Assembly: GCA_028283655.1 (NCBI GenBank)
Contig: JAPWKE010000003.1
Coordinates: 1,054,001 to 1,118,000, forward strand
Reading direction: 5' to 3'
DNA length: 64,000 nucleotides
DNA from: Acidobacteriaceae bacterium
GTDB lineage: Bacteria; Acidobacteriota; Terriglobia; Terriglobales; Acidobacteriaceae
Each line of letters opens with the position of its first letter. Position 1 is the stretch's first letter. The notes below the pieces were generated by a model that was not told the DNA's origin, made no database searches, and saw only the letters and a program-made list of their open reading frames with translations. The translations under genes were made by a program, and so were the position numbers. Below are positions 25,256 through 27,085 of the stretch, piece after piece.

Positions 25256-27085
25256 TTACTCTGCCGACTCTCCATGAGCTTCGCTCTCATCCTTCGCCTG
25301 CCCGCCCTGGTGGCGCATCAGAGGGAAGAGGATGACATCACGAATCGAACGCGACCCGGTCAGCAGCATGGTCAGGCGGTCGATGCCGATGCCTTCGCCA
25401 GCCGTGGGCGGGAGGCCGTAACCGAGGGCGCGGACGTAGTCGGCGTCCATCTCCATGGCTTCGTCGTCGCCGCGAGCCTTTTCGTTCACCTGTGCCTCGA
25501 AGCGTTGCTCCTGATCGGCCGCGTCGTTGAGCTCGGAGAAGGCGTTGCCGACTTCAAAACCGCCGATGTAGAACTCGAAACGCTCGGTCCATTCGGGGTC
25601 GGCGGGGTTGATCTTCGAGAGGGGCGAGACGGCGAGGGGGAAGTCGTAGATGATGTGCGGCTGGATGAGATGTTCTTCTGCGAGCAGTTCAAAAAGCTCT
25701 GAGATCGATTTACCCAACGACCCAGTACGTAACAGCCCGGCATTCAAAAGCATGAATTGTCCCCAGACCACCGAGACGTGCTTCCATTTGGTCTCATCCG
25801 AGCTTGAGTCCTCGACTTGTGGCTGCAACTCGTTGATGACGGATTGGAGGAGTTCTGTGTACGCCGAGAGATCTGTAAAATCTGCCGGACTAGGCTTTAC
25901 TACAAGAGATGACGGCCACCACTTCACGATCGCTTCGCGCATCGACAGCTTCGTCCACTTACTCAAATCAATCTCATTGCCATTGAAGTGAGTAACCGTC
26001 GTTGCATTCACTTCCATCGCCACAAACTTGATGAGCTCTTCCGTCAGGTCCATCAGGTCGTGAAAGTTGGCGTAGGCCTGATAGAACTCAAGCATCGTGA
26101 ACTCGGGGTTGTGGCGCGTGGAGACGCCTTCGTTGCGGAAGTTGCGGTTGATCTCGTAGACGCGATCGAAGCCGCCGACCACGAGGCGCTTGAGGAAGAG
26201 TTCGGGCGCGATGCGGAGGTAGAGCGGCATGTCCAGCGCGTTGTGATGCGTGGTGAACGGGCGGGCCGTTGCGCCTCCGGCGACGGAGTGGAGCATCGGG
26301 GTTTCGACCTCGATGTACTCGCGGTCGTCGAAGAACTTGCGGATGGCGCGGAGCACGGCGGCGCGTTTGACGAAGACTTCGCGGACGTTGCGGTACTCTT
26401 CGATGGGTTGCTCCACGGGGACAGGAGAGTCCGGGGCTGAAGCCCCTTCTTTCGCCTGGCTGGATAGAGGGCTAAAGCCCGCTTCTCCCTCCGTTTTTTG
26501 CGGCTCGGGCTTCGTCGAGTTCATGATGAGGTCGACGTACCGCTGGCGGTAGCGCAGTTCGACGTCTTCGAGGCCGTGGTACTTGTCGGGCAGGGTCAGC
26601 GTGGCCTTCGACAGGAAGACGATCGGCTGCTGGCCGTCGATCGGCGCAGCCTTCAGCGTCAGTTCGCCGGTGCGGGTCCGCATCAGGTGGCCGCGAACGC
26701 CGATATGGTCGCCAAGGTGGAGGTTCTTGTAGAGCTCGAAGGCGTCTTCGCCGACGTCGTCCTTGCGGACGTAAAGCTGAATGCGCTCGCCGCCCTGCTG
26801 AAGCTGCGCAAAGCCGGCTTTGCCCTGCGCACGGATGGCCATAAGGCGTCCGGCGATGGCAAAGGGAGGCGGCGTGGCTTCAAGCTCTTCGCCGCTGACA
26901 TTGGCGAACTCGGCACGAATCTTCGGCACCGTGGTGCCTTCGGGGGAGAAGCGGAAGCTGTTCGGGTAGGTGGCTTCGCCCGCATTCAGGCCGAACTTGC
27001 CGGTGCCCAGCTCTTCAATCTTCTTCAGGCTGGCAAGACGGTCGTCGTAAAGCTTCTTCTCGTATTCGGTTTCAAACTGGGGCAC
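25256..27085 (-). CDS. lysS: Lysyl-tRNA synthetase, class II, with two insertions
   Basis: Charges tRNA-Lys. At 609 residues it is about 100 longer than the usual 490-510. An N-terminal OB-fold anticodon domain lies at about 58-165. The class II core has motif 1 ([19 protein letters not shown]), motif 2 ([18 protein letters not shown]) and motif 3 ([11 protein letters not shown]). Two insertions account for much of the excess. Residues about 190-230, between the OB domain and motif 1, contain a stretch encoded by a palindromic repeat (26426-26485). Residues about 440-490, before [14 protein letters not shown], are encoded by visibly AT-richer DNA (about 25700-25900). Both leave the frame open and all catalytic motifs intact, so the enzyme is probably active. 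Divergent from atpZ. Confidence 0.93.
26426..26485 (-). repeat. Palindromic intergenic-type repeat inserted in frame within lysS
   Basis: Two short hairpins, 26433-26446 (GGGGCTGAAGCCCC) and 26469-26480 (GGGCTAAAGCCC), are separated by 22 bases. In the sense of lysS this reads as a GGGCTTTAGCCC hairpin, a spacer, then a GGGGCTTCAGCCCC hairpin. It encodes about 20 residues rich in Ala/Ser/Pro ([20 protein letters not shown]) in the inter-domain linker. Paired hairpins of this type resemble small dispersed repeats that I recall from intergenic DNA of Acidobacteriaceae; that recollection is unverified. No second copy was seen in this window. Confidence 0.6.

Follow-up and report, generated by a model that had tools for sequence, protein, structure and literature searches.

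An in-frame REP-like palindromic doublet in lysS of an Acidobacteriaceae bacterium and a LysS linker that recurrently takes up mobile repeats

Described intragenic palindromes and the lysS unit

Intragenic REPs of the GTAG/CGTC type lie inside ORFs, with over half of them forming dimers or groups that encode 20-30 residues, and, in the excerpted parts of the report that describes them, their hosts are DNA repair and RNA-related genes, including those for tRNA synthetases; in recB of two Xanthomonas species, a REP is found at about the same site, and the GTAG repeats are linked to RAYTs, the REPtron being named there (Di Nocera et al. 2013, PMC3733652). The main text of that report mentions Acidobacteria a single time, in connection with transposases flanked by terminal repeats. 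REPtrons, as outlined in an extract of Nunvar et al. (2010, PMC2817692), consist of inverted REP copies on either side of a Y1 transposase gene, with solitary copies dispersed. The palindromic elements of Rickettsia measure 105-146 bp and have terminal inverted repeats (Ogata et al. 2000, as quoted in part of PMC2229807).

The unit analyzed here is translated within lysS, on the minus strand of the window, that is, the whole 64,000-nucleotide stretch of DNA under analysis (Table 1). As in the intragenic GTAG/CGTC REPs, it is a small in-frame palindrome doublet with a RAYT link; unlike the REPs in the excerpted text of PMC3733652, the lysS site has gathered repeats of four families across many species, and the copies follow a sense-strand rule and show an intergenic lean to the same strand. 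The arrangement laid out in the REPtron extract is matched by inverted copies of the lysS repeat family (family A) around Y1 genes in relatives and by dispersed solitary copies, whereas the lysS copy is without the GTAG foot and the RAYT of its own genome belongs to another repeat family (D).

The sequence-only reading had compared the unit with the Rickettsia palindromes. As a way of working, the comparison stands: judging by the quoted part of the source, both are repeats that are dispersed in a single genome and read in frame within a conserved gene, which stays open and is kept. As membership it falls, because the lysS unit spans about 59 bp and is built of two separate, side-by-side hairpins rather than of a longer element with terminal inverted repeats. 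Families A and D sit at RAYT genes, whereas the Rickettsia elements are not known to have a mover, and a REP doublet of a RAYT-associated family is the better comparison.

Rickettsia is the best-known source of translated palindromes, and REPs translated in scattered genes have also been reported; in the soil-type lineage considered here, the process is repeated many times in essential enzymes. In-frame REPs and Rickettsia palindromes are already known; as far as our searches show, what is new is the lineage, the entry of four families at a single site, and the strand rule. Within the open-licence library searched, no title or abstract opening on in-frame repeats in Acidobacteria or on the repeat peptides tried was retrieved, and no report of a multi-family site or of a strand rule was found.

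The lysS unit and its dispersed family

One of the four LysS matches in the own genome is full length, namely, the lysS of the window. The insert lies between two Pfam domains, the OB-fold of residues 77-146 and, at residues 233-590, the class II catalytic domain; the alignment with E. coli LysU (PDB matches) breaks off after residue 190 and resumes at residue 235, which confirms the position first proposed, in the linker between the anticodon-binding (OB-fold) and catalytic domains. Both hairpins and the 22-base spacer between them (26447-26468), originally noticed in the letters alone, were recovered in the open lysS frame. The claim that an essential gene had been left unbroken was also borne out at the sequence level: the frame is open, domains are present on both sides, and the catalytic-core residues are invariant in 43 aligned LysS. 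An insertion of 30-40 residues had been proposed; the linker does have 42 extra residues compared with a 9-residue linker, about 20 of which come from the unit, with the remainder being other linker sequence. Judged by eye, a TAG left unchanged in the register of the foot would terminate the lysS frame.

Table 1. Positions of lysS and of the features of its linker in the window
Feature	Position	Strand	Basis or remark
lysS, lysyl-tRNA synthetase, 609 aa	25256..27085	-	open frame; Pfam PF01336 and PF00152; PDB LysU/LysS matches
Expanded LysS linker, residues 187-237, 51 aa	26375..26527	-	comparison of relatives
Family A unit, REP-like doublet, about residues 201-220	26428..26486	-	profile match
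Hairpin nearer the lysS start, GGGCTAAAGCCC (coding strand GGGCTTTAGCCC)	26469..26480		
Second hairpin, GGGGCTGAAGCCCC	26433..26446		
Degenerate foot, GGAGGGAG	26485..26492	-	GGAGTAGA in eight other own-genome doublets
26 bases opening the linker	26502..26527	-	identical in sister species G001

The long LysS linker is probably disordered. In 37 long linkers, disorder-promoting residues make up a fraction of 0.78, compared with 0.61 in the remainder of the protein, and hydrophobic residues 0.16 compared with 0.32. In an AlphaFold model of LysS (mean pLDDT 74.5), the linker is of low confidence and without structure; the conserved catalytic stretch 260-328 is modeled equally poorly, so the model says little about the linker. 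A second length-variable segment of LysS, between the SMREAI and GKxIAELFE motifs (window positions 25727-25909, about residues 393-453), differs strongly among relatives; no repeat was seen in it by eye, and a profile control covering at least part of the segment gave no match.

The suggestion that the unit is a dispersed repeat was substantiated by a genome-wide search. The core GGGCTNAAGCCC occurs 44 times in the 4.27-Mb genome, with no occurrence of the reversed control pattern, and nine two-hairpin units were extracted from own-genome stretches, that is, eight in addition to the one in lysS. Within the window, the core is present twice, compared with 0.05 expected from dinucleotide shuffles (0 of 100 reach 2), while the first hairpin alone, with two mismatches allowed, is unremarkable there (2 matches; 24 of 100 shuffles reach 2). 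Many family A copies are alike beyond the hairpins, reading, on the lysS coding strand and printed in register, GGAGTAGAGGTGGGCTTCAGCCCACCGTC, spacer, AAGGGGCTTCAGCCCCGG. A family A profile built from 10 copies outside lysS matches the lysS unit with 39.6 bits (E 3e-10).

Among the 44 sites, lysS alone has the unit inside a gene body, as assessed by Pfam and codon usage. The Pfam scan covered 40 frames, namely, the lysS of the window and all but two of the 41 stop-to-stop frames with 150 or more residues in the surroundings of the sites; these two were the lysS frame as listed, already scanned as the window gene, and L098:1319-1801, and sites lacking a 150-residue frame were assessed by codon usage alone. 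The codon-usage test, applied to all 44 sites, called as intragenic the two lysS sites and three single sites, which lie in genes for an OMP_b-brl_4 outer-membrane protein, a class II RNR, and a histidine kinase and look like chance matches. In rpiA, a RibD_C gene, and a flavin oxidoreductase gene, the core sites are located upstream of the domain. Contig C2 (288 kb) carries 18 of the 44 core sites (G000:C2:150805-232467), many of them one-stranded and 2-3 kb apart near 185-200 kb.

These three single sites lend some color to the view that the palindromes are native to the linker, a low-complexity and variable sequence in which GC-rich Ala/Pro/Ser/Gly codons might form two palindromes by chance. 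The match of the lysS unit to a profile of outside copies extends, however, to the sequence between and beside the hairpins, and codon-shuffled linkers yield no family A match of at least 8 bits; we consider this origin highly improbable.

Like REPs, family A consists of many dispersed, mostly intergenic small palindromes. GTAG is found within 10 bases at 17 of the 44 own-genome sites, and the lysS copy reads GGAG; given this partial occurrence, we call family A REP-like and do not file the lysS copy as a canonical GTAG REP. A Y1 transposase search of eight relatives returned 34 matches at 30 loci. Inverted pairs of A-type hairpins flank RAYT genes in G005, G011 (two genes), G012, and G026 (G000 is the own genome and the other G numbers denote genomes of relatives), with the upstream copy being a doublet in G005 and G012. 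D-type motifs are found near Y1 genes of G000, G001, G003, G012, and G026, among others, and the B and C motifs tried were absent from the scanned part of 31 Y1 loci (the 30 above and the one of the own genome). Thus, families A and D behave as RAYT-associated REPs. The only Y1/RAYT gene found in the own genome (L191, G000:C3:1616696-1617560), directly preceded by a frame that resembles uvrB, is flanked by the four exact D copies of that genome, and no RAYT gene with A copies was found there.

Filled and empty LysS linkers among relatives

Alignment of LysS with its neighbors showed that the segment is unconserved. In a set of 80 lysS loci drawn from named genomes, chiefly Acidobacteriota with some other phyla, the linker has exactly 9 residues in 73, 19 to 56 in six, and none in one fragment. 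The E. coli linker is 9 residues long as well. Within the genus, 28 genomes were searched and the linker was readable in 24 (25 loci, with one genome represented twice) and then in G012; it measures 9 residues in three (G009, G011, and G025) and 22 to 151 in the others.

Four dispersed families were recognized in the linkers: A, B (GTCATYCTGAGCGAAG...GTCGAAGRACC, with the peptide VILSE...SKDP), C (TGTCATCTCGACCGGAG...GTGGAGAGACC, with the peptide SSRPERSAVERPA), and D (GGGTGCCCCAT...GGGTGGG, with the peptide GAPS). Exact patterns matched 42 (A), 108 (B), 87 (C), and at least 210 (D) times in the 28 genomes, and reversed patterns never; at least five exact matches fall inside genus linkers, against 0.015 expected (447 matches, 116 Mb, about 3.9 kb of linker). 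We then searched 32 long linkers (40 loci minus five that were unreadable and three with 9 residues) at a threshold of 8 bits, using family profiles whose source copies all came from outside lysS (10 A, 43 B, 17 C, and 27 D). This yielded 18 matches, five of them below 16 bits, in 14 of the 32 linkers, each from a different genome (13 of 22 in the genus and 1 of 10 in other genera): A in G000, G007, G012, and G026, B in seven genomes, and C and D in three each. The profiles matched nowhere in the 47 kb of lysS sequence that flanks the linkers, and 640 codon-shuffled linkers gave a single match (11.4 bits). The longest linker seen, with 151 residues (G012, L218, G012:C21:1-3000), contains four in-frame matches from three families. 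In this lineage, the LysS linker is very probably a site where mobile repeats land and turn over recurrently, and, for annotation, part of the variable linker sequence in such proteins is mobile DNA, not a conserved domain.

Recurrent use of one site, with all 18 profile matches in the sense orientation, might indicate a selected device, either an RNA hairpin controlling lysS translation or a longer hinge altering LysRS activity. As an RNA device, the candidate was rejected: an 86-base stretch folds no better than its shuffles (z -0.93, with 40 of 200 doing as well), so what sets the repeat apart is its copies rather than an exceptionally stable RNA. Nor has any one sequence been preserved, with families differing between sister species and 18 of the 32 long linkers giving no profile match, and selection for such a device strikes us as very unlikely.

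The sister species G001, whose LysS is 82% identical to that of G000, has family D in the linker where G000 has A. In these two genomes, the opening 26 bases and the end of the linker are alike and the 450-base flanks are 86% and 84% identical; the middle could not be aligned, which prevents a target-site duplication, expected of a MITE along with terminal inverted repeats, from being read there. Between G003 (no match) and G004 (D), unrelated linkers lie within flanks that are 92-94% identical. On a tree of the LysS core, with the linker left out, neighbors that differ in content are G000 (A) and G001 (D), G003 (none) and G004 (D), and G056 (B) and G123 (none). A single ancestral insert inherited vertically was thought unlikely, as the families differ between sister species. 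By eye, each D copy in lysS resembles the variant that is common in the genome carrying it (CATCCGTA for G001, CATCCTCG for G004), which suggests separate insertions. The argument is weaker for family A because its variants, such as CCCCCTGAA of G007, which is found in other genomes of the genus too, are common to several genomes.

The 9-residue linkers of G009, G011, and G025 and the difference between G003 and G004 suggest that recombination also replaces the linker. Taken further, species might exchange linkers through homologous recombination in the conserved flanks, with the repeats as passengers that do not insert there. The unrelated linker types of G003 and G004 within closely similar flanks and the nesting of 9-residue linkers in a long-linker clade would fit such an exchange. 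It is nevertheless rather unlikely as the whole account, considering the resemblance of the D copies in lysS to those of their own genomes and the presence of in-frame units elsewhere (in the genes for TrmFO, UbiE, a GlmS-type protein, MutS, and DnaX, and in other genes); moreover, recombination accounts for turnover but not for first entry.

Family A is dispersed and linked to RAYT genes in relatives, its lysS copy is in frame, and relatives have empty as well as differently filled sites. The best explanation, which we regard as very probably correct, is that a REP-type doublet of this family inserted into the codons of a long LysS linker, where the frame was kept and the insert tolerated, and that the linker is a recurrent landing site for four families. 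The doublet would have entered between the OB-fold and catalytic domains, possibly moved by a RAYT acting on single-stranded DNA; the frame would have stayed open, with the translated insert presumably close to neutral for the enzyme and tolerated by LysS, and members of the four families would have entered the linkers of different species, in the sense orientation in each profile match. Counting against this explanation, the own RAYT is flanked by D, so that no present mover of A is seen in the own genome; the lysS copy has no GTAG foot; over half of the long linkers are without a profile match; and the comparisons neither captured an insertion event nor yielded a target-site rule. Overall, the original observation is confirmed as real and proved larger in extent than first described, and its interpretation as an intergenic repeat landed in a gene is supported, with the correction that the insert lies in a linker which, in this lineage, is long and variable and acquires repeats recurrently. 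Empty and differently filled sites in near relatives make it testable how selfish repeats feed new protein sequence, why the host protein is not destroyed, and what sets the orientation of the repeats.

Other host genes and the strand of the copies

TrmFO was readable at 24 of 27 loci tried, with family C in G011 and family B in G012. In G025, which is nearest to G011 in the TrmFO search (91% identity), a D-like unit was seen by eye; three further sites are long (53-61 residues) without a recognized unit, and 18 have 29-42 residues. By these comparisons, TrmFO has a site of the same kind as the LysS linker. Judged by codon usage on either side of the copy, 4 of 45 B copies, 10 of 21 plus 15 of 42 C copies, and 1 of 27 plus 1 of 1 D copies are intragenic. 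The corresponding 29 frames were scanned with Pfam (28) or NCBIfam (L310), four of them (L243, L390, L392, and L396) matching no family at the thresholds used. The host genes identified include those encoding methionyl-tRNA synthetase, TrmFO, class II RNR, DnaX, UbiE, and a DinB-type polymerase; RNase H, EutB, TrpE, and Lhr and DinG/YoaA-type helicases; and MutS, a MutS-type ATPase, a UvrD-like helicase, SRP54, MnmG, a GlmS-type transferase, and an FtsJ-type methyltransferase. For instance, TrpE of Bryocella elongata carries a family D copy. In the GlmS-type gene, family C is located at apparently the same site in two species (L419 in G013 and L422 in G010).

The intragenic copies are all in the sense orientation, 18 of 18 in lysS (profile) and 31 of 31 elsewhere (25 C, 4 B, and 2 D; codon usage); for C, two scoring rules gave 25 and 35 intragenic copies, all sense. 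Strand counts relied on gene calls from a home-made codon-usage score, which recovered lysS and its neighbors in a 5.5-kb part of the window. In the lysS linker of G136 (L205), a D-like hairpin appears, by eye, to be antisense, an exception that the profile did not report. An antisense A-core match in the RNR gene (L031), without a second hairpin, was set aside as chance.

Intergenic copies between codirectional genes lean the same way, with 50 of 63 being sense (C 19/21, B 21/28, and D 10/14, the D lean alone being weak, P 0.09), as are 12 of 17 family A copies so placed in the own genome. Stop codons were rejected as the cause of the rule, since one or more of the antisense frames are free of stops in nearly every copy (18 of 19 for C, 44 of 45 for B, and 27 of 27 for D). 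Choice of frame by hydropathy was also rejected, as the frame used is not always the most hydrophilic one (the VILSE frame of B has a mean KD of -0.13, compared with -1.31 in another sense frame). In family C, all three sense frames are used, with the SSRPER frame accounting for 20 of 25 (partly read by eye, partly counted). The intergenic sense lean is not explained by peptide selection alone and may instead stem from transcription- or replication-linked insertion or from an RNA effect.

Because all sense frames are used by family C, antisense frames are open to a similar degree, and the lean extends to intergenic copies between codirectional genes, we tentatively raise the possibility, on balance doubtful, that the sense orientation is an insertion signature and not the result of protein selection. 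The direction in which repeats enter would then be constant with respect to transcription, for instance if RAYT-type single-strand transposition placed them in the single-stranded nontemplate strand of a transcribed gene, and housekeeping genes would accumulate translated repeats, with the LysS linker and the TrmFO loop acting as long-term collectors. As regards a possible replication-strand bias, B copies of G003 appear, by eye, to be on mixed strands along the chromosome, while C copies of G011 form one-strand blocks, the first six being on the plus strand and the next six on the minus strand.
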